DNA from: an uncultured Actinomycetes bacterium
GTDB lineage: Bacteria; Actinomycetota; Actinomycetes; Nanopelagicales; Nanopelagicaceae
DNA length: 64,000 nt
Reading direction: 5' to 3'
Assembly: GCA_903834145.1 (NCBI GenBank)
Contig: CAILHY010000022.1
Span: forward strand, 1 to 64,000
The notes beneath the pieces were generated by a model that was not told the DNA's origin, ran no database searches, and worked only from the letters and a program-made list of their open reading frames with translations. This document shows positions 7,001-64,000 of this stretch, piece by piece. Within the stretch, counting starts at the first letter, position 1, and the number at the start of each line of letters is the position of its first letter. A program made the translations under genes and the position numbers.

Positions 7001-7313
7001 TATGGCGAGAACATAATGATTGGCCATCTGGTCCAATTTCATAATGCTGACACGCAATCGCTAGCCGATCGAAAGCTTTATCGCCATAGTGTGTCCGATA
7101 GGCAAGGGCTAAGAGCACGCGTAGATTTGTGTCGCCATCGGCACGAATTCCGAATGCTTTCGCGGTTCGACTGACAGTGTTTTCTACTACTTTTTCCGTA
7201 TGCGCCGTATCGCGCGCGATGGAAGAGTTCGATTTACCCTCACACAAGAGATCCATGACAAGTCGCTCGAATGGCGTTAAATCTCGAGTTGCGATCGTAA
7301 TGTCTACTGCCAT
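6996..7313 (-). CDS. LuxR-type helix-turn-helix protein (stand-alone HTH)
   Basis: A 105-aa protein that is essentially a GerE/LuxR HTH domain: LTPFERLVMDLLCEGKSNSSIA, then an ENTVSRTAKAFGI recognition helix. No receiver or ligand domain precedes it. A short Cys/His-containing tail (ACQHYEIGPDGQSLC) follows and could bind metal, though this is weak. It is likely a small DNA-binding regulator. The gene runs into the 10-bp tandem repeat at its 3' end. It is divergent from the catabolic operon starting at 7399 with only 85 bp between, so it may control that operon (inference). Confidence 0.75.
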   Translation of the reverse strand: MAVDITIATRDLTPFERLVMDLLCEGKSNSSIARDTAHTEKVVENTVSRTAKAFGIRADGDTNLRVLLALAYRTHYGDKAFDRLAIACQHYEIGPDGQSLCSRHI

Positions 7314-7386
7314 GATGTGCGGGGGCCTCTCCTGAAGGTTTGAGTAGTAACTCTCTTGACACTCGTACTTTACTCGTGCTCACCCT

Positions 7387-7392
7387 TAAGAT
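7387..7392 (+). promoter_or_regulatory. Candidate -10 box (TAAGAT) for a leaderless catabolic operon
   Basis: TAAGAT ends 6 nt before the ATG at 7399, and no Shine-Dalgarno sequence is present. A TTGACA lies at 7356-7361 but is too far upstream to serve as a standard -35. Confidence 0.5.
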
Positions 7393-7398
7393 TGCCAA

Positions 7399-8154
7399 AT
7401 GGATGATGTATTAGCAAGAGTAGATGGCGGTGTGTTGGTTCTCACAATGAATAGACCGGCGAAAATGAACGCGATCACCCGGTCGATGTATGCGGGGTTA
7501 TCCCGACACCTGACTGACGCCGCAGGAAACTTCGCAATTCGGACAGTCGTGATTCAGGGGGCAGGGGCTCATTTTACCGCCGGAAATGACATTTACGATT
7601 TCATCGAAGAACCTCCGACGGGCCCAGATTCGCCAGTAAGCCATTTCTTGGAGGTCATCCACAACTTCCCCAAGCCCATCATTGCGGCGGTGTCGGGTAA
7701 TGCCGTGGGGATTGGCACAACCATGCTCTTTCACTGCGAAATCGTCTTTGCTAGCCCCTCTGCCAATTTTTCTATGCCCTTTGTTTCCTTGGGATTGGTG
7801 CCCGAGGCCGGTTCGAGTTACATATTCCCAGCACTTGCTGGATACCAAGAAGCCTCTCGAATTTTTCTCACAGGTGAGAGTTTTAGCGCGGATGAGGCGA
7901 AAGGTTACGGGCTAGTGAGCGTTATTTGCGAAGATGCGCAGGAGCAAGCACTTATTATGGCGAAAAGAATTGCAGAGCAACCACCTACATCGGTGATCAA
8001 TACGAAGGCGCTACTCAAGGCTCGATCTCATGATGCAATCACGGCGGTAATGAAAGTAGAGGGCGAACTATTCATGCTTGCTCTGCAATCAGATGAAGCA
8101 ATGTCGGCGTTTATGAAATTCACCTCAAAGAAATCTAAAGGAGTCACAGAATGA
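7399..8154 (+). CDS. Enoyl-CoA hydratase/isomerase family protein
   Basis: A 251-aa crotonase-fold protein: RPAKMNAITRSMY near the N-terminus, the oxyanion-hole segment GAGAHFTAGNDIYDF (about residues 54-70) and the second oxyanion segment VSGNAVGIGTTM followed by PEAGSSYIFP. It would act on an acyl-CoA double bond. It lacks an obvious Glu pair of classical enoyl-CoA hydratases at one position, so isomerase or hydrolase activity is equally possible. It is the first gene of a four-gene operon; its stop overlaps the next start by 4 nt. Confidence 0.85.
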   Translation: MDDVLARVDGGVLVLTMNRPAKMNAITRSMYAGLSRHLTDAAGNFAIRTVVIQGAGAHFTAGNDIYDFIEEPPTGPDSPVSHFLEVIHNFPKPIIAAVSGNAVGIGTTMLFHCEIVFASPSANFSMPFVSLGLVPEAGSSYIFPALAGYQEASRIFLTGESFSADEAKGYGLVSVICEDAQEQALIMAKRIAEQPPTSVINTKALLKARSHDAITAVMKVEGELFMLALQSDEAMSAFMKFTSKKSKGVTE

Positions 8155-8981
8155 GCCTTCAAGGAAAACGTATTTTCATCACTGGGGGATCGCGTGGAAT
8201 TGGATTAGCAATTGCGCTCAAAGCCGCTGCCGACGGCGCATCGATCGCAATTGCGGCCAAGACAGCTGATCCGAATCCGAAATTGCCAGGCACTATTTAC
8301 ACTGCTGCCAAAGAGATAGAGGCAGCAGGTGGAATAGCCCTTCCGATCCAATGTGATTTGCGAGATGAGAATCAGATTTCTGAAGCAGTTGCCCGTGCGG
8401 CTCAAGAATTTGGTGGCATAGATATCTTGATTAACAATGCGAGTGCTATTAATTTGACGCGCACGGAGGAGACACCAGCCAAGCGCTTTGACCTCATGTT
8501 TGACGTCAATGTTCGAGGAACATTTTTAACTTCACAGGCTGCGATTCCGCATCTTCGCGAATCCGCGACAGCGGGTAGAAATCCTCATATTTTGACACTT
8601 TCGCCGCCGCTGTCGATGAAACCTAAATGGTTTAAGAATCACGTCGCTTACACCATGGCAAAGTATGGAATGAGCATGTGCGTGCTTGGGATGTCGGAAG
8701 AATTTCGGCGAGATGGCATTGCTGTAAATGCACTCTGGCCACGTACCGCAATTGATACCGCAGCTTTAGCGATGATTCCGGGGGTTGATACGGCTGCCTG
8801 CCGCACCCCAGAAATCTTGGCAGATGCTGCTTATGCAATATTTCAACGAAAAGCCAAGGATTGCACAGGTAATTTCTTCGTCGATGATGAAGTTCTCGCA
8901 AGTGAAGGAATTAATGACCTCGATAAGTATTCCGTGGTACCCGGAACGAAGGACTTCCTGGTCGACTTCTTTCTCGACTAA
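8151..8981 (+). CDS. Short-chain dehydrogenase (HSDL2-like SDR)
   Basis: A 276-aa NAD(P)-dependent oxidoreductase. It has the cofactor motif GGSRGIGLAIA (TGxxxGIG type), INNAS for NNAG, a catalytic stretch with Ser (TLSPPLS) and YTMAKYGMS (YxxxK). The long insertion after the first strand (AKTADPNPKLPGTIYTAAKEIE) is characteristic of the hydroxysteroid-dehydrogenase-like 2 subgroup. Substrate cannot be read. The start overlaps the upstream gene by 4 nt. Confidence 0.85.
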   Translation: MSLQGKRIFITGGSRGIGLAIALKAAADGASIAIAAKTADPNPKLPGTIYTAAKEIEAAGGIALPIQCDLRDENQISEAVARAAQEFGGIDILINNASAINLTRTEETPAKRFDLMFDVNVRGTFLTSQAAIPHLRESATAGRNPHILTLSPPLSMKPKWFKNHVAYTMAKYGMSMCVLGMSEEFRRDGIAVNALWPRTAIDTAALAMIPGVDTAACRTPEILADAAYAIFQRKAKDCTGNFFVDDEVLASEGINDLDKYSVVPGTKDFLVDFFLD

Positions 8982-27103: not shown

Positions 27104-27151
27104 CAAAAAAGACTCAGCCCCGAGTTCCTGTACCGGAACTCGGGGCTGAGT
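27104..27151 (-). terminator. Rho-independent terminator of the cytochrome b operon
   Basis: Perfect 17-bp arms 27112-27128 and 27135-27151 with a 6-nt loop are followed on the minus strand by a run of six or seven T. It lies 10 nt after the stop of the 311-aa gene and isolates the operon from nhaA. Confidence 0.93.
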
Positions 27152-27160
27152 GGAATTTAA

Positions 27161-28096
27161 CTATAGATTATTCTCTTTGTAATACTTGCGCCAGATAAGC
27201 CTATGGAAAGGAATCAGGCGAGGTAGTCGATTTATGAATGGCAACTTAGGCATAAAGATGAAGCCCAAGTTGAGCAGCATCAGCACGAAGAAAATTTGTG
27301 CGTCGGCATTTTCTGATGACTTGAATGGCTCGATTTGATACAACGAAGAGAACATCCATAGCCATGATTGACCAGGGTATGAACCTGTCTCGTTCATCAT
27401 TCCCCATTGGTCACCATGGAGATGTTGCTTAGCTCCGAGATCATCAAAGTATGCGCCATCTGCAAGGAAGAGCATTGGCATTGTGAAATCACTAGGCAAA
27501 GGAGTTACCTGAGTGGTTAAAAGTCCATCCAGAGAGCCTTCCTGAGCCAGATGCAAGAGCGCATTTGTGAGTATTGGGACGGGTCCATATGCAGCATCGG
27601 CGGTAACCGAGGCGGCATCTCCGGCTTTTTCAATGGCAGATGCATAATCTGAAGCCCACTTTGTCTGTTGATCAGAACTGGCGCCATTCCATGTAGCAAC
27701 AGCCCCAGGTACTGCAGGGTCAATACTTGACTTCAATGGCTTCAATACAAAATCTTCAGCTGGATTAACAGGAATCGTTACTCCGGCCCACTTCTGAATC
27801 TTTAGTGGCCCAAGATTTAAACCCTCAGCCGCTGTGTTGTAAGGAGCGCCGTAGCCTGCGCTGATTGTTGAACCAGCTAGCTCGCCTGTTGCCGTGGCAA
27901 CAAAGTCAGAGGGAGCGTTTTGTCCCCATTGCTGCAAAGTAATTGCGCGATCATCAGGTGAACTAAATAGTGCTGCAAGAGCGCCAACAAGGACTGTTAC
28001 GACAACAAGTGCGATAACAAATTCTTTTACTAGATCATATGGACGCTTTGGTCCGCTCCATTTTGCAAGATCGACATTGCGTTCTTTGGTACTCAC
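27161..28096 (-). CDS. Membrane-anchored extracytoplasmic protein of the cytochrome b operon
   Basis: A 311-aa protein with a membrane segment at about residues 25-45, a large extracytoplasmic region of about 215 residues, and a second membrane segment near residues 263-283 followed by a basic tail (NRLPRLIPFHRLIWRKYYK). There is no CxxCH heme motif and no Rieske cluster motif. The outer domain has a His-rich spot (KQHLHGDQW). Its start overlaps the cytochrome b gene by 4 nt. It may be the partner subunit of a small quinol-handling complex. I do not recognise the family. Confidence 0.7.
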   Translation of the reverse strand: MSTKERNVDLAKWSGPKRPYDLVKEFVIALVVVTVLVGALAALFSSPDDRAITLQQWGQNAPSDFVATATGELAGSTISAGYGAPYNTAAEGLNLGPLKIQKWAGVTIPVNPAEDFVLKPLKSSIDPAVPGAVATWNGASSDQQTKWASDYASAIEKAGDAASVTADAAYGPVPILTNALLHLAQEGSLDGLLTTQVTPLPSDFTMPMLFLADGAYFDDLGAKQHLHGDQWGMMNETGSYPGQSWLWMFSSLYQIEPFKSSENADAQIFFVLMLLNLGFIFMPKLPFINRLPRLIPFHRLIWRKYYKENNL

Positions 28097-28710
28097 TTGC
28101 CACCTCCAGCAATCTCTTTCGCATCAAGCGGAGGTACGACACCATTTTTACGAACAAGAATGACGTGCCATACCACGATGATTCCAACAGCAAGTGGAAG
28201 AAGCGCTACGTGAAGAAGTAAGGCTTGACCTGAGTTAAGGGTATTCATAAATGAACCGATACCCACGGAGTTCAAACCATCTTTAGCTTGGGTTGCAATC
28301 CATTGGGAATCGAAGTTTCCTTGAATGAGATATCCGGTAAAGGCGGTTGCAAGGGATGCAAGGAAACAGAAAGTTCCCGTTACCCACGTCATGAAGCGTC
28401 GTCCACGCCATGCGGCCATCCAGAACTTGCCCCATAGGTGAACAACCATGAATACGAAGAACATTTCAACTGCCCACAAGTGAACAGAGTTTACGTAATG
28501 CCCAACACTGGAGGAGTGCCACCAAGCAGCACCTTTAGTTGTGAGCCAAATTCCGGAACCGATAATTACCGCAAGAGCTGCAAGGGTTAATACGCCAAAG
28601 ACGTAAATCCACGATGCAACATAGGAGGGTTGATTATCTGGAAGTGCATCTTGAGGATCGATGCGTTCAATAGTTGCACGTCGTACGCGCGTGGTCCACA
28701 TAGTTGCCAT
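28093..28710 (-). CDS. Cytochrome b N-terminal-domain protein (b6-like, four helices)
   Basis: A 205-aa protein equal to the N-terminal half of cytochrome b. Two His pairs sit on two helices: HLWAVEMFFVFMVVH (14 apart, about residues 76-90) and HVALLPLAVGIIVVWH (15 apart, about 165-180). These would bind two b hemes across the membrane. The spacing matches that in this window's own QcrB. The Q-site PEWY region of the C-terminal half is not encoded here. A short one-helix gene precedes and an anchored extracytoplasmic protein follows. There is no Rieske or cytochrome c gene in the operon, so its electron partner is unknown. Confidence 0.85.
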   Translation of the reverse strand: MATMWTTRVRRATIERIDPQDALPDNQPSYVASWIYVFGVLTLAALAVIIGSGIWLTTKGAAWWHSSSVGHYVNSVHLWAVEMFFVFMVVHLWGKFWMAAWRGRRFMTWVTGTFCFLASLATAFTGYLIQGNFDSQWIATQAKDGLNSVGIGSFMNTLNSGQALLLHVALLPLAVGIIVVWHVILVRKNGVVPPLDAKEIAGGGK

Positions 28711-28715
28711 AGTTT

Positions 28716-28877
28716 CTACTTCCCGTCTTCTTTATGAGTAGGGAATGGAATAACCAGTGCCAAAATAAATAGCACAAAAATGCAACCAATCATGATGAGG
28801 TTGGGGATCGACACAGATATGAAGCCCCAGTTAAAGAATTTCGCAGGACCATTTAATGACAAAGCCAATAAAGCCAT
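28716..28877 (-). CDS. Small single-helix membrane protein of the cytochrome b operon
   Basis: A 53-aa protein: short amphipathic start (MALLALSLNGPAKFFNWG) and one membrane segment at about residues 24-45, ending FPTHKEDGK. The ATG at 28877 has a good GGAGAG site, 5 nt separate its stop from the cytochrome b start, and it looks like a small stabilising subunit as in other cytochrome complexes (inference). A longer in-frame start at 28928 is less likely. Confidence 0.72.
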   Translation of the reverse strand: MALLALSLNGPAKFFNWGFISVSIPNLIMIGCIFVLFILALVIPFPTHKEDGK

Positions 28878-29100
28878 AGCTCGCTCTCCTTTTTGACTCC
28901 TATGAATTAGGCGTCGCAATGTGGACAAGTATCCTTCTTTGTCCGATTTTCTACGGGGTTTTCACACTTAAACTATAGGAATATTGACCCTTTTAAGGGG
29001 CACCACTCTTGCCTCTGCTTTTTGGGGGAGACACCAATCTAGTATTTGCTTAGGTAGGTGTAGGGGATTAAGTGGTAAATGCCACGACAACGCCATGCAA
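28878..29100. other. Intergenic region between cytochrome b operon and glnA terminator
   Basis: About 220 bp with no convincing gene. It must hold the promoter of the minus-strand cytochrome b operon near its left end. A TTGTCC-like hexamer and AT-rich stretches are present, but no single promoter could be chosen. A TTTTAAGGGG stretch near 28990 was not assigned. Confidence 0.4.
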
Positions 29101-57051: not shown

Positions 57052-57528
57052 ATGAAGCGTATGAACCATCGCCTTTTTATGGCTGTACTTCTTCGACTAC
57101 TCGTCCTTTCGTGTTTCGTTTTGGCGGGTTGGATGATTTATTTAATGGTAGATCTGCCTGTTTCTTATCGCGCGCAGAACTGGGATCTGGCTTGGATTGG
57201 TTTTGACGGGGCAATGCTGACCACTCTTTCGGCGACCACTTGGTCGATTTGGAAACGCAGACAGTTAGCCATTCCTGCCTCGATGGTATCGGCAACCTTT
57301 TTGATTATTGATTCGTGGTTTGACGTGACCACTTCGCAAGCTGGAATCGATTTCAAACTAGCGTTATTGTCTGCGCTGCTTGTTGAGATTCCTCTGGCTT
57401 TGTTGCTGTTTAGATTCAGTCGAAGTTCAATAAAGCAGTCCCTCATTAGCGCCCATAAACACGCTGGCATCGAAGTCGTTTCCCTTTCCTTGTACAAGAC
57501 TCCTTTAACGATCTTCAAAACTGAATGA
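57052..57528 (+). CDS. Actinobacterial integral membrane protein, unknown function
   Basis: A 158-aa protein with four predicted membrane segments (about residues 8-33, 47-65, 74-92 and 103-121) and a cytoplasmic basic tail. It has WDLAWIGFDGAMLTTL and FLIIDSWFDVTTS motifs that recur in a conserved actinobacterial family. It starts 13 nt after the permease and overlaps the next gene by 4 nt. Confidence 0.72.
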   Translation: MKRMNHRLFMAVLLRLLVLSCFVLAGWMIYLMVDLPVSYRAQNWDLAWIGFDGAMLTTLSATTWSIWKRRQLAIPASMVSATFLIIDSWFDVTTSQAGIDFKLALLSALLVEIPLALLLFRFSRSSIKQSLISAHKHAGIEVVSLSLYKTPLTIFKTE

Positions 57529-59162
57529 TCAGTCGGAGGAAAGTGACCTCACGGAAAACTCCCATTCTTGTTGTGCTCTCATTATCATTAGCCCTGTTGC
57601 AACAGACCCAAGTTAGTGCAGCCGAACCTAATCCATGCGAATTTGATCGAAGCCCAACGTGGGTGGCACAAGAAAACAGCAAAGTCGGGGATTGGCAATG
57701 GGATGAGGGGATTCCTATTGCTCTTGAGGCAAACGTAAAGAAATTATCACCAACTAAACATGTTTCCAGATTGGCCAAGACACAAGATGCTAGGAGTCAA
57801 CGTCCGATCGAAGGATGGTTTAGTTCCTCCAGCGCACAATGCGGACAAAGTGTAGGACTACATATATCCAGCGCCGGCCGTTATGTGGATGCGAGTATTT
57901 TCAGAATTGGTTATTACGCTGGAGCCGGAGCTCGTCTCATTGAACGAGTGAAGATCAAAGTTCCCGATCTCACACCTCAAGAGAAAGCGGCGCCGATTCT
58001 GACCACCGAAGATGCAAGCAACTGGCCAGTTGCGTGGAGTCTTAAAGTGACAAAGAAGACGCCACCCGGTGAGTACGTTGTCAGATTGGATGCCTCGCAC
58101 ACCGAAGGCTCCTTTGTGCCCTTGGTTATTACAGATAAGGGATCGCGAAATGCAATCTCATTTCTATCATCGGCCCTTACTTGGCAGGCGTATAACAAGT
58201 GGGGTGGAAGATCTCTCTATTCCGGTGCTGATGGTAAAGCTGATACTCGAGCCACGATTGCAAGCTTTGCGCGGCCTTATGCTGGCGACGGTGCCGGCCA
58301 AGCAAGGTATATGGAGTATCCACTCATTTTTCTGGCAGAGAAGGTTGGATTGGATCTCAATTACGCCAGTGATATGGATCTAGATTCCGGTGGCGCTGCG
58401 ATAGAAAGTTCGCGTTCGATCATTCTTAGTGGTCATGCCGAATATTGGACTACCGCCATGCGCGCAAATCTCGAAAAGTCTATTGCTCGAGGTGCCAATC
58501 TAATTTCCCTCGGTGGGAATTCAATCTATAACAGGCCAATTGTAGATCGCGTTAGTAACACAACGAGTAACACAACGAGTGAAAGTATGAGCATGTGGAG
58601 GTGGGGTGGGCCCAAGGATCCCCATGCAAACGATCCACTTTTAGCATCAACTGCATGGCGAATTTTCCCCATTCTAAATCCAGAATCGCTACTTCTGGGA
58701 TCGCAATACTTGGGGATAACGCCTGTGACCGATCTTCACGTAGCAATTGGGAATCCGTGGCCGTTCAATGTTTTACCGGCTGGAGATATTTTGCGAAATG
58801 TCGTGGGAACTGAAATTGATTCACCACTGTATTCACCCGGGCCATCCATCCAGGAGTTAGCATCTGCAAAAGTTGTAGTACGCACCAAGGACGCAACGAT
58901 GATGTCTACATATTTTGTGACAAGTTCAGGGGCTGCAATTTTGGATATAGGAACTGATGGGTGGGTCTGTTCCATCGCAAATAATTGCCCATGGAAATCC
59001 AAAAGCAGAGCGGTTGATTCGGAGAAAGTTGCAAGAGTGACCGAAAATATCCTGGATTCCTTACGAACCAACCAACTCGCAGTGATTCATCCACCAACGT
59101 TGAACGTGCATGATCGCAATATCTTCTTTGATGAATGGGCCGGTATCGTCGAATTGAATTAA
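57525..59162 (+). CDS. Secreted N,N-dimethylformamidase-beta-like protein
   Basis: A 545-aa secreted protein with a signal peptide ending VSA (near residue 32). Central motifs TWQAYNKWGGRSLY, RPYAGDGAGQARYMEYPLIFLAEKVG and SGHAEYWT match the large-subunit DMF-amidase fold (DMFA2-type). It is exported, so it acts outside the membrane. Cys residues near the N- and C-termini may form disulfides. The substrate is unknown; the DMF label is only a family name. Its stop interlocks through TTAA with the convergent CuA gene. Confidence 0.8.
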   Translation: MISRRKVTSRKTPILVVLSLSLALLQQTQVSAAEPNPCEFDRSPTWVAQENSKVGDWQWDEGIPIALEANVKKLSPTKHVSRLAKTQDARSQRPIEGWFSSSSAQCGQSVGLHISSAGRYVDASIFRIGYYAGAGARLIERVKIKVPDLTPQEKAAPILTTEDASNWPVAWSLKVTKKTPPGEYVVRLDASHTEGSFVPLVITDKGSRNAISFLSSALTWQAYNKWGGRSLYSGADGKADTRATIASFARPYAGDGAGQARYMEYPLIFLAEKVGLDLNYASDMDLDSGGAAIESSRSIILSGHAEYWTTAMRANLEKSIARGANLISLGGNSIYNRPIVDRVSNTTSNTTSESMSMWRWGGPKDPHANDPLLASTAWRIFPILNPESLLLGSQYLGITPVTDLHVAIGNPWPFNVLPAGDILRNVVGTEIDSPLYSPGPSIQELASAKVVVRTKDATMMSTYFVTSSGAAILDIGTDGWVCSIANNCPWKSKSRAVDSEKVARVTENILDSLRTNQLAVIHPPTLNVHDRNIFFDEWAGIVELN

Positions 59163-59842: not shown

Positions 59843-61423
59843 TTATTCAATCTCCCTGTGAGTGTCGCCCCCTGGCTTTTGGATCTGCTCGGCATCGGCA
59901 CGACTGATCCGAGCGCGAAGCTTGCTTCCACGACTATTGGGGTTGCGCACACCGTGCTCGTCCTCGGTGAGGTGCTCGAGGGCAACCGGTTGTTCATGCT
60001 GGGTGAGCGTCCAAGCCTTCTCCTTGGAGATTGGTTCATGGACTTCGATGAATTCACCTTCAGCGCTCATCATCAAGCGGCCAGTCTCCTTGCCATGCAA
60101 CACAAGGTCTCTATCGGCTCTTTGTAGGGAGAGGCAGAGGCGTTTGGTGATTACGTAGGCAATTGGTGGCAGAACAAAGATTCCAATTCGGCTAAACCAC
60201 ATGATCTGATTTATGGTCAGAGAGAAGTGAGTTGCGATGATGTCATTTCCACCGTTGAGCAAGGTAACGAGGATAAAGGTGAGTGACATGGCACCTAAGG
60301 CTGTGCGATTTGGAGCATTGCGTGGACGATCCAAGAGATGGTGTTCGCGCTTATCGCCCGTGAACCAACTTTCAATAAATGGATAGAGAGCCATTCCCGT
60401 GAAAAGAATTCCAGGAACGATCAAACCAGGAATCAAAATATTCCAAGAAATCGTGTGTCCAAAGGCGTGAGTCTCGATAGGGGGAGACATACGAACTAAT
60501 CCATCGAGCCATCCCATATACCAATCGGGTTGGGATCCAGCAGAAATCTGTCCGGGTGTATAGGGACCATAAAGCCAAATCGGGTTGATGGATGCAAGAG
60601 CAGAGAGCAACGCAGTTACACCAAAGACGATGAAGAAGAATCCACCAGCTTTTGCCATGTAGACCGGCATCAACGGATAGCCAACAACATTCTTCTCTGT
60701 GCGACCGGGTCCTGGATATTGCGTGTGCTTCTGGTACCAGACCAACATGAGGTGGGCAGTAATAAGCGCCAGGAAAAGTCCAGGCAAAAGCAGAACGTGC
60801 ACCGTAAAGATTCTTGGAATGAATGCATCCCCAGGGAATGGGCCGCCGAAGGCGAAGAAGGAAAGATAGGAGCCAACGACAGGCATCGCTTGAATGATTG
60901 CTTCAGCGATACGAATCCCTGTACCAGAGAGAAGATCATCAGGAAGTGAGTAACCCAAGAAGCCTTCTACGATTCCAAGAGTTAAAAGACCGACGCCGAT
61001 GATCCAGTTAAATTCTCGAGGTTTGCGATATGCGCCAGTAAAGAAGACGCGAAGTAAGTGGGCAACAATCGCTGCCATAAACAAAAGCGCCGCCCAGTGG
61101 TGAATTTGGCGCATCAGCAATCCACCCCGGATATCAAAGGAGATATGCAAGGTGGAGACATAAGCGGCGGACATTTTGATCCCACTTAAAGGTTGATAGC
61201 TACCTTGGTAGAGAACTTCGCGCTGGGATGGATCAAACCAAAATGTTAAGAAAACGCCAGAGAGAAGCAAGATGATAAATGAGTAAAGTGCGATTTCACC
61301 GAGCATAAATGACCAGTGGTCAGGGAATACTTTTGTGAGATTCTTCTTGAGCCACTTGGCTGCGCCAGTACGTTCATCAACATAATTGGCTACCTTGCCA
61401 GCAGGAGTTTGTGGTGCACTCAT
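59843..61423 (-). CDS. qcrB: Cytochrome bc1 complex cytochrome b subunit
   Basis: A 526-aa subunit with the N-terminal four-helix heme domain. Helix pairs RQIHHWAALLFMAAIVAH and VHVLLLPGLFLALITAH hold the His ligands. The C-terminal half has PEWY-type quinol-site residues seen here as QPDWYMGWLDG. A long cytoplasmic C-terminal tail is typical of actinobacterial QcrB. It oxidises menaquinol. The ATG at 61423 overlaps qcrA by 4 nt. Confidence 0.96.
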   Translation of the reverse strand: MSAPQTPAGKVANYVDERTGAAKWLKKNLTKVFPDHWSFMLGEIALYSFIILLLSGVFLTFWFDPSQREVLYQGSYQPLSGIKMSAAYVSTLHISFDIRGGLLMRQIHHWAALLFMAAIVAHLLRVFFTGAYRKPREFNWIIGVGLLTLGIVEGFLGYSLPDDLLSGTGIRIAEAIIQAMPVVGSYLSFFAFGGPFPGDAFIPRIFTVHVLLLPGLFLALITAHLMLVWYQKHTQYPGPGRTEKNVVGYPLMPVYMAKAGGFFFIVFGVTALLSALASINPIWLYGPYTPGQISAGSQPDWYMGWLDGLVRMSPPIETHAFGHTISWNILIPGLIVPGILFTGMALYPFIESWFTGDKREHHLLDRPRNAPNRTALGAMSLTFILVTLLNGGNDIIATHFSLTINQIMWFSRIGIFVLPPIAYVITKRLCLSLQRADRDLVLHGKETGRLMMSAEGEFIEVHEPISKEKAWTLTQHEQPVALEHLTEDEHGVRNPNSRGSKLRARISRADAEQIQKPGGDTHREIE

Positions 61424-62412
61424 GATGATCGCTCCCAAAAGCTCGGTCCAACGGGTTCAGTAAAAGGCTTTTGCGCTACGAGATAACCTTCGGAATCAAT
61501 AGTGATTGCCAACTGTGGCAGTGGACGAGCAGCTGGTCCGAAAATCACCTTCGCCGCTCGAGGCACGTCGAAAGTGGATTGATGACATGGGCACAGTAAG
61601 TGTTTAGTCTGTTGCTCGTAAAGTGCAACAGCGCAGCCCATGTGTGAACAAATCTTTGAGAAAGCGATGATCCCTTCATACGTCCACGAAAGTCGCTCTG
61701 GAGAGAGTTCGAACTCTTCCGGGCGCAAGCGAATAAGTAGAACGGCGTCTTTGCCGATGTTGTTGAGAGTGCGCTCTTCACCTGGCAAGAGTTGAGGTAA
61801 TACTTGAGCAACAGCGCCCACCTCGAGATCTGATGGCTTGATGGCGCGGTTGCCAGGATCGGTAACAAGTCGAGTTCCAGTTTTCCAACTTGTGGTTTGC
61901 AATTGATTCTTAGGTAGTGGACCAAGATCGCGCAGTAATAGCAACGGCGAGGCAGCAAGAAGTCCGCCTGAAAGTCCTAGTGTTCGCTTGATAAGGGAGC
62001 GACGGCCTAGACCTGCGGCTGCGGCACGCTCTTTGACAGTGGCAACGAAATCTTCGCGATCAGATTCCTCAGATCGAAACTCGTGACGCTCTGCGATGAC
62101 CTCTTCATCAGGCATCAGAGTTTTAGCCCAATGGACCGCTCCAAGACCCATGAACAAGAGAGCAAGTGCAAGCCCTAATCCAAGAAAGAGTTCATGGGCG
62201 TTGGTTGTTCCCATGACAGGCAGGAATATAAATTCAGTAGTTGGAATGAAAATGTATGAGGCAATAAAAAGAATAGTTCCTACTGCACTCAGGAGAAAGA
62301 GGATGGCAACTTGACGTTCTGCCTTCTTTTCGGCAACAGGGTTTGTATCTGTGGCGCGATGGACGTGATCAGGCAATCCTGGATCAGAGATCGGCTCGAT
62401 TTCGTGTGACAT
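61420..62412 (-). CDS. qcrA: Cytochrome bc1 complex Rieske iron-sulfur subunit
   Basis: A 330-aa protein with three N-terminal membrane segments, as in actinobacterial QcrA, and a Rieske domain. Ligands lie in CSHMGC and CPCHQSTFD (Cys-His pairs). It transfers electrons from quinol to the cytochrome c domain of QcrC. It starts 4 nt after qcrC and overlaps qcrB. Confidence 0.96.
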   Translation of the reverse strand: MSHEIEPISDPGLPDHVHRATDTNPVAEKKAERQVAILFLLSAVGTILFIASYIFIPTTEFIFLPVMGTTNAHELFLGLGLALALLFMGLGAVHWAKTLMPDEEVIAERHEFRSEESDREDFVATVKERAAAAGLGRRSLIKRTLGLSGGLLAASPLLLLRDLGPLPKNQLQTTSWKTGTRLVTDPGNRAIKPSDLEVGAVAQVLPQLLPGEERTLNNIGKDAVLLIRLRPEEFELSPERLSWTYEGIIAFSKICSHMGCAVALYEQQTKHLLCPCHQSTFDVPRAAKVIFGPAARPLPQLAITIDSEGYLVAQKPFTEPVGPSFWERSS

Positions 62413-62415
62413 TAC

Positions 62416-63207
62416 TTATCTCGCTTTCGTTGCTAGCCAGACCGCAATGCCAATAAGCAATCCGAGTCCTAGTGTCCATATAAGTAAACCTTCTGTAACC
62501 GGCCCTACGCGCCCAAGCGATGCTCCGCCATGGGCAGGTTCTGCTTGAGCAGCTTTAATCCATTTAATGATGGAAAGTTTTTCAGTAGGAGTGAGAATTT
62601 TGTCGGAAAAAACCGGCATGGACTGTGGTCCCAAAACTAACGCTTCATAAATTTGGGTGGGAGTTGCCTGCATCAAAGATGGTGCAAATTTTCCTTGGCT
62701 AAGCGCCCCGCCTTGTCCGGCAAAGTTATGGCACATGGCGCAGTTCGTGCGAAAGAGTTCGCCGCCTTGCGCAGTGTTTCCATCGCGCTCGTAATTGATG
62801 ACATCTGCTGATGGAATAGCAGGTCCTGGGGAAAGGGATGCAACGTAGGCTGCGAGTGCTGCTACTTGATCAGGTGTGTAGGCAGGCTTCTTTCGCATTG
62901 CCTGAACAGTCATGTCAGCCATCGGCATGCGCCCAGTACCAACTTGGAAGTCCACATCTGCTGCGCCTACGCCAATTAGGGATGGCGCGATCGCACCGCC
63001 TTCAGCGTTGAGCCCGTGACATGACGAGCAACCTTTAAGGAAAATCTGTCGGCCTTCATCAACTGCTGCAGATCGAGCAAGTGTTGTTGCACTTTGACGA
63101 GTTGTTGCATTAGCGACCGAGAAAGTTGTTCCGATCATAAAGAGTGCAAAGACCATAAGCACTGGCCCTGCAAAGCGGTGACGTCTGTAACGCGAGAGGC
63201 GCTTCAC
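62416..63207 (-). CDS. qcrC: Cytochrome bc1 complex diheme cytochrome c subunit
   Basis: A 263-aa protein with an N-terminal membrane/signal segment, two heme-c motifs (CSSCH and CAMCH) and a C-terminal membrane anchor (LLIWTLGLGLLIGIAVWLAT). This is the actinobacterial diheme cytochrome that replaces a soluble cytochrome c, enabling a bc-aa3 supercomplex. It is 21 nt after ctaE. Confidence 0.96.
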   Translation of the reverse strand: MKRLSRYRRHRFAGPVLMVFALFMIGTTFSVANATTRQSATTLARSAAVDEGRQIFLKGCSSCHGLNAEGGAIAPSLIGVGAADVDFQVGTGRMPMADMTVQAMRKKPAYTPDQVAALAAYVASLSPGPAIPSADVINYERDGNTAQGGELFRTNCAMCHNFAGQGGALSQGKFAPSLMQATPTQIYEALVLGPQSMPVFSDKILTPTEKLSIIKWIKAAQAEPAHGGASLGRVGPVTEGLLIWTLGLGLLIGIAVWLATKAR

Positions 63208-63228: not shown

Positions 63229-63855
63229 TTACTTAATAAGGTAAATAGCTGAAAAGAGCGCGATCCATACAACATCAACAAAGTGCCAGTAGTACGAAAC
63301 AACAATCGCAGTCGTCGCTTGTTTGTGGGAGAAACCGCCTGCTTTACTGACGCGAACCATCACAAGTAAGAATGCAACAAGTCCGCCCGTTACGTGCAAA
63401 CCATGGAAACCTGTCGCAAAATAAAAGACAGAACCGTAGGCCCGCGATGAGAGACTCAAACCTTCTTGAACTAAATTCGCATACTCATAAATCTGACCTC
63501 CCACGAAGAAGGAACCCATCAAGAATGTCAGTGCAAACCATTCGCGCATTCCCCACTTTGAGAATTTCCAGAGAGCAGCAGTGCGGCGAGGTTGTAAACG
63601 CTCTGCCGCAAAAACTCCGAACTGACAGGTAACGGATGAGAGCACGAGAACCGTTGTATTCACTGCGGCGAAAGGAACGTTAAGAATTTTCGTCGAGGCA
63701 AGCCACACTGCTGGGCCTTGTACTGCACGCGTGGTGAAGTACATGGCGAAGAGGGCTGCAAAGAACATGAGTTCACTGGAGAGCCAGACGATTGTGCCTA
63801 CGGCAACAATGTTGGGTCTATTGATCTTGGGCGTGGTGAGGCTGGCGCTAGGCAT
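63229..63855 (-). CDS. ctaE: Cytochrome c oxidase subunit III
   Basis: A 208-aa protein with about five membrane helices. It has [18 protein letters not shown] and [15 protein letters not shown], both subunit III signatures. It precedes qcrC-qcrA-qcrB as in other actinobacteria. The ATG at 63855 was preferred (AGGAAT site, [10 protein letters not shown]); an ATG at 63894 would add 13 residues. Nothing certain lies beyond to 64000. Confidence 0.94.
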
Positions 63856-64000
63856 GGGGTGATTATTCCTGTATTTGGGAGAGTTTCGCGCCATATGAGG
63901 CCTCTGGCAGAAGAATTTACCGCCAACCTTGGGGTGAAAAGAGTCACGACAATTCTGGGCGAGTGGGCTTGTGGCGGGGTGACGGGATTGGCCGGCGTTG

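Follow-up and report, generated by a model that had tools for sequence, protein, structure and literature searches.

Analysis of a 64,000-nucleotide stretch of contig CAILHY010000022.1 (assembly GCA_903834145.1; hereafter the window), from an uncultured actinobacterium of the family Nanopelagicaceae, revealed a three-gene unit encoding a 53-amino-acid one-helix protein (sm), a 205-amino-acid four-helix cytochrome b (cyb) and a 311-amino-acid membrane protein (p311). On balance, this trio is considered likely to be a menaquinone-linked, low-oxygen transmembrane diheme electron-transfer complex. The evidence comprises the homology of cyb to cytochrome b6, the conservation and joint inheritance of the genes, natural gene fusions, and enrichment of hypoxia-type regulatory boxes at related loci.

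The central protein, cyb (28093..28710, minus strand), was identified from its open reading frame, profile matches, fold comparison and conserved histidines. It matched PF13631 (Cytochrom_B_N_2) with an E-value of 8e-13, above the cut-off, and a profile of its family matched cytochrome b6 chains in the Protein Data Bank (PDB; E 4e-14). Foldseek also paired the cyb model with cytochrome b6 (prob 0.99, best E 0.015, TM-scores ~0.3); because this model was poor (predicted local distance difference test, pLDDT, 70), the identity of cyb rests more on the sequence match. The initial annotation had proposed two histidine pairs at spacings of 14 and 15, and indeed H77/H91 and H167/H182, the putative heme ligands, were conserved in 99-100% of relatives. 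Judged from these matches, cyb is a distant homolog of cytochrome b6 and would bind two b hemes and move electrons. Cytochrome b cores of its family are transmembrane electron carriers that contact quinone near the inner heme.

The largest protein, p311 (27161..28096, minus strand; GTG start), was defined by its open reading frame and a family alignment. Transmembrane helices were predicted at ~26-44 and 268-286, in agreement with the double anchoring suggested earlier, and enclose an outer helical domain of ~220 residues; the structure model was essentially all-helical between the two membrane helices. Searches of p311 against Pfam, NCBIfam, PHROGs and PDB sequences, the last also with the family profile, gave no match, and Foldseek found nothing significant among PDB folds for a model of medium quality (pLDDT 76, predicted template modelling score 0.57), with which a fold could be missed. 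The p311 family is thus unclassified, having no model in the libraries searched, and the protein was not recognised as a subunit of any known complex. The alignment contained a conserved block, LxGDQWGMMNETGxYPGQxWxW, with strongly conserved positions that include L226, G228, Q230-E236, P241-Q243, W245 and W247, and with two neighbouring invariant methionines. Cysteine was absent from the window sequence and the family had neither an invariant cysteine nor an invariant histidine (the best, H225, reached 88%). A classical c-heme, Rieske or copper site is therefore unlikely, and the earlier statement that p311 carries no heme or Fe-S motif held. The smallest protein, sm (28716..28877, minus strand; open reading frame with ATG at 28877), is first in the unit and has a predicted transmembrane helix at ~27-45. 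Its homologs were found by BLAST at the same position in 63 loci with invariant N26, F37, A40 and P44-F45-P46, the PFP following the single helix in the main family; a Pfam search of sm returned no match.

Conservation of the trio was examined in a homolog scan of one genome per species, which returned 237 encoding stretches; the best 80 were kept for the analyses of trio order and of neighbours, the latter built on a codon-scored gene call. The records name Streptomyces, Kitasatospora, Arthrobacter, Cellulomonas, Nocardioides, Amycolatopsis, Acidimicrobiaceae, Solirubrobacteraceae and others, and some are metagenome bins labelled Chloroflexota or Acidobacteriota; the trio was also present in freshwater actinobacterial bins. 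The order sm-cyb-p311 recurred among the best 80 of the 237 stretches with 4-bp overlaps or short gaps, similar to the 4-bp cyb/p311 overlap and the 5-bp sm-cyb gap of the window. Of the 116 loci fetched, which span several actinobacterial classes, 114 had cyb next to p311; contig ends truncated the other two. The trio is thus conserved far outside the window genome, and its description as one unit, first made from the window alone, is borne out by the open reading frames, the short junctions and recurrence in more than 100 loci. Carriers of p311 made up 20 of 397 genomes in a sample of the phylum, 50 of 151 in the window's family and 14 of 21 in its genus. Within the family, all 48 cyb-positive genomes were also p311-positive, and in the two genomes with p311 only, p311 lay near a contig edge. 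This patchy yet joint inheritance of cyb and p311 argues for one functional unit. Plasmid searches with p311 and cyb found nothing.

Natural fusions also link the proteins. In two loci from two genera of one family (L113 and L114, the latter from a single-contig genome), cyb and p311 were fused in one reading frame, and in a third locus from another family (L107) sm, cyb and p311 formed a single frame of 611 amino acids with sm at the N-terminus of cyb. The normal copies overlap in different frames, and one sequencing error could mimic one fusion; an artefact is unlikely because three genomes in two families show fusions. Sm, cyb and p311 therefore very probably form one complex, and from the fusions we infer that the C-terminus of sm, both termini of cyb and the N-terminus of p311 lie on the same side of the membrane.

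Several variants of this arrangement were encountered. A divergent pair of cyb and p311-like genes (L104:2139-3794; p311-like profile E 2e-33, cyb E 1e-33) appears to represent a second subfamily, apparently without sm, with neighbours resembling glutamate synthase. In another locus (L109:3-5741 and 7109-8808) a trio-like cyb and p311 pair was divergent from a complex I-like block, in which a NuoB-type protein was confirmed by Pfam and the other genes were judged by eye. Two genomes of the phylum sample, G379 and G092, contained two p311 matches each, on different contigs (L102, L097, L100 and L103).

A link to hypoxia was sought with a matrix constructed from the OsdR sites listed in PMC5069765 (Table 1), which are independent of the trio loci, at a threshold of at least 6 bits. 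Outside the window's clade, 35 of 66 trio upstream regions contained OsdR-type boxes, compared with 60 of the 422 control regions lying upstream of other genes at the same loci (p 3e-11). In a stricter set (loci below 80% cyb identity, intergenic controls only) the proportions were 15/35 and 13/111 (p 1.4e-4), and 11 of the 15 trio boxes were situated 70-130 bp upstream of the unit, compared with 3 of the 13 control boxes. The site at locus L055, CGGGACCTTCGGCCCT, is identical to the published OsdR site upstream of SCO5979 (PMC5069765). Predicted OsdR/DevR boxes are thus enriched at trio loci outside the window's clade as a group, not in every locus. Neighbours at some of these trio loci encode universal stress proteins, pyruvate phosphate dikinase, a hemerythrin-tailed P-type ATPase, nitroreductase, pyridoxamine oxidase, Hsp20 and phosphoketolase, several of which are types named as OsdR targets (PMC5069765). 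Boxes and neighbours at many trio loci are therefore of the kinds known from the DevR/OsdR dormancy regulon, with the neighbour link carried by a minority of the loci: universal stress proteins occur at 10 of the best 80 of 237 stretches. The published list of OsdR targets contains, among others, stress proteins and nitrate reductase; no cytochrome appears in it, and the main text of the S. coelicolor OsdR study makes no mention of cytochromes (PMC5069765).

In the model favoured here, sm, cyb and p311 would form a single integral-membrane complex. Two stacked b hemes in the cyb core would connect the inner to the outer face of the membrane, and p311, held by its two helices, would cover the outer heme and set the partner or substrate, occupying the place taken in bc1/b6f by the Rieske protein, cytochrome c1/f and the C-terminal half of cytochrome b. 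The one-helix subunit sm would resemble the small Pet subunits of b6f. Through the complex, the menaquinone pool and an outer-face partner would exchange electrons, chiefly at low oxygen and, in many actinobacteria, under DevR/OsdR-type control.

Several observations weigh against this model. About half of the trio loci outside the window's clade scored below 6 bits, and no good OsdR/DevR box match was found in the window or its close relatives and clade, which differ in this from the regulon and for which hypoxic control is unproven. No constant neighbour of the trio points to a substrate, and from p311, which has no recognisable cofactor, electrons cannot be traced any further; the heme and quinone of the trio rest on homology. 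In favour of the model, two associations are the only hints of a hypoxia link in the window's clade. In the window's family, cydA (cytochrome bd) was found in 28 of 50 trio genomes and in 14 of 101 genomes without the trio (odds ratio 7.9, p 1.6e-7), a co-occurrence that ignores phylogeny and was not significant inside the window's genus. The trio was also anti-correlated with rhodopsin in the family (odds ratio 0.19, p 5e-5), a result uncorrected for ancestry and again not significant inside the genus; it would fit darker or deeper habitats, but ancestry may explain it. The cydA match of the window genome itself was split over two contigs (G000:C7:60694-61158 and G000:C30:58223-59071), each part covering one end of the family model.

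Comparison with known systems places the core of the trio in a known superfamily; it is not a new kind of system. Like cytochrome b6 of b6f (PF13631/PF00033), cyb has a four-helix diheme core of similar length, the same histidine spacings and a TW-TG motif after helix B, and b6f also has separate one-helix subunits. Unlike b6f, the unit contains no subunit IV, Rieske protein or cytochrome f; cyb is ~20% identical to b6, its outer quinol loop has GYLxQxNFDSQW in place of PW, and in the alignment the heme-cn cysteine of b6 has no counterpart. Of the components of bc1/b6f, the diheme N-terminal half of cytochrome b with its two histidine pairs was found in cyb. As the initial annotation had reported, the C-terminal quinol half was absent, cyb stopping after the fourth helix (helix D), and no subunit IV with a quinol site was found in the Pfam-negative p311 and sm. 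Nor was a Rieske Fe-S protein or a cytochrome c1/f encoded in the operon or among its recurring neighbours, consistent with the original view of a cytochrome b operon lacking these partners. Two features that define the bc1/b6f class are therefore missing from the trio. QcrB of the actinobacterial bcc-aa3 chain belongs to the same cytochrome b superfamily and occurs in the same phylum and window, but is full length and works with QcrA and QcrC; cyb scored 17 bits with the NCBIfam QcrB model, whose cut-off is 500. The best NCBIfam match of cyb was ExtP of selenite/tellurite reduction operons (NF040969; E 2.4e-14), likewise a stand-alone N-terminal cytochrome b; the score of 53.6 bits is far below the cut-off of 290, and the partners of cyb are sm and p311.

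No description of the trio was found in the open-access full-text literature; accounts may exist in subscription journals. Because its core is recognised only by generic cytochrome b models, and its partner p311 by no family model in the libraries searched, this widespread redox complex seems to have escaped notice. If the trio does function when oxygen is low, the dormancy physiology of actinobacteria gains a respiratory component. The trio also raises the question of how one half of a cytochrome b operates without its quinol-oxidising counterpart. A more novel reading, regarded as rather unlikely, is that the conserved outer GDQWGMMNETGxYPGQ block of p311 and the remodelled cd loop in cyb together form a new site for quinone or substrate at the outer face, p311 replacing subunit IV, the Rieske protein and cytochrome c/f together. 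Such a complex would be electrogenic and quinone-linked, would contain neither Fe-S nor c-type cytochrome, and would carry actinobacteria through hypoxia.

The window also encodes a complete qcrCAB-ctaE set: qcrB (59843-61438), qcrA for the Rieske protein (61420-62412), qcrC with cytochrome c domains (62416-63207) and ctaE (63229-63894), all confirmed by Pfam. The set lies ~31 kb from the trio, close to the 30 kb first estimated, so that the trio supplements a full bcc-aa3 chain as an extra complex, in line with the conclusion of the initial annotation. The best of the rival explanations, itself unlikely, assigns the trio to this chain as an assembly or accessory factor, not a separate redox enzyme, that would, for example, deliver electrons to oxidase maturation or dock on the supercomplex. 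The cyb core as a distant QcrB paralog would suit such a role, as would the Acidimicrobiaceae loci and L117, where the trio adjoins ctaA, a UbiA-family (ctaB-like) gene and a gene for an AhpC/TSA-redoxin family protein. However, this adjacency was seen mainly in one lineage, neighbours elsewhere were unrelated, and presence in 20 of the 397 phylum-sample genomes is patchier than would be expected for a general oxidase assembly factor.

Next in order, and also doubtful, is a redox or oxygen sensor in which p311 would use the two hemes to monitor redox conditions at the outer face or in the quinone pool, without respiratory flux. The link to dormancy-regulon genes fits a sensor, and the conserved cytoplasmic ends of p311 (Y20, D21, K24, E25; P292, W302) could touch a regulator, but the trio loci showed neither a signalling domain nor a kinase or regulator as a constant neighbour, and a transmembrane diheme wire exceeds the needs of a sensor. 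Less probable still is an activity like that of superoxide oxidase (CybB), passing electrons from superoxide at the outer face to quinone. CybB shares the four-helix diheme b core, and cyb has an additional outer-face histidine, H65, conserved at 96%; Foldseek gave a very weak match to 5oc0 (E 1.7), ranked below the cytochrome b matches. By sequence, however, cyb groups with cytochrome b6 and not with b561 (PF01292, cytochrome b561 / Ni-hydrogenase cytochrome b: 12.1 bits, cut-off 30.1), H65 is replaced by glutamine in L113, and no requirement for partner subunits is known for CybB. A random grouping of small genes with no relation to each other, or the remains of a decaying bc complex, to which the missing C-terminal half, Rieske protein and cytochrome c might point, is refuted with near certainty by the conservation across classes, overlapping genes, fusions and joint inheritance.

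The expression signals of the trio in the window were all on the minus strand. The ribosome-binding site AGGAGAG (28884..28890) lies 6 nt upstream of the sm start, with GGAGA kept in relatives, and the spacing of the genes is also alike in relatives. The 17-bp terminator said to close the unit was located as an inverted repeat at 27112..27151 with 11 G-C pairs in its stem and a T run. Since glnA, upstream of the trio, is followed by a terminator-like site of its own (29136-29104), separate transcription of the trio is probable. An Rfam search found no RNA elements. Alignment of upstream regions revealed a short element around GAGTGGTGCCCCTTAA (28993..29009) that is not an OsdR/DevR box and recurs in many close relatives. 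Elsewhere in the window, between the cytochrome oxidase genes and qcr, a 545-amino-acid protein (57525-59162) was found to carry a DMFA2_C domain (dimethylformamidase beta-like C-terminal, E 2e-66), which is an uncommon neighbour for genes of an oxidase.
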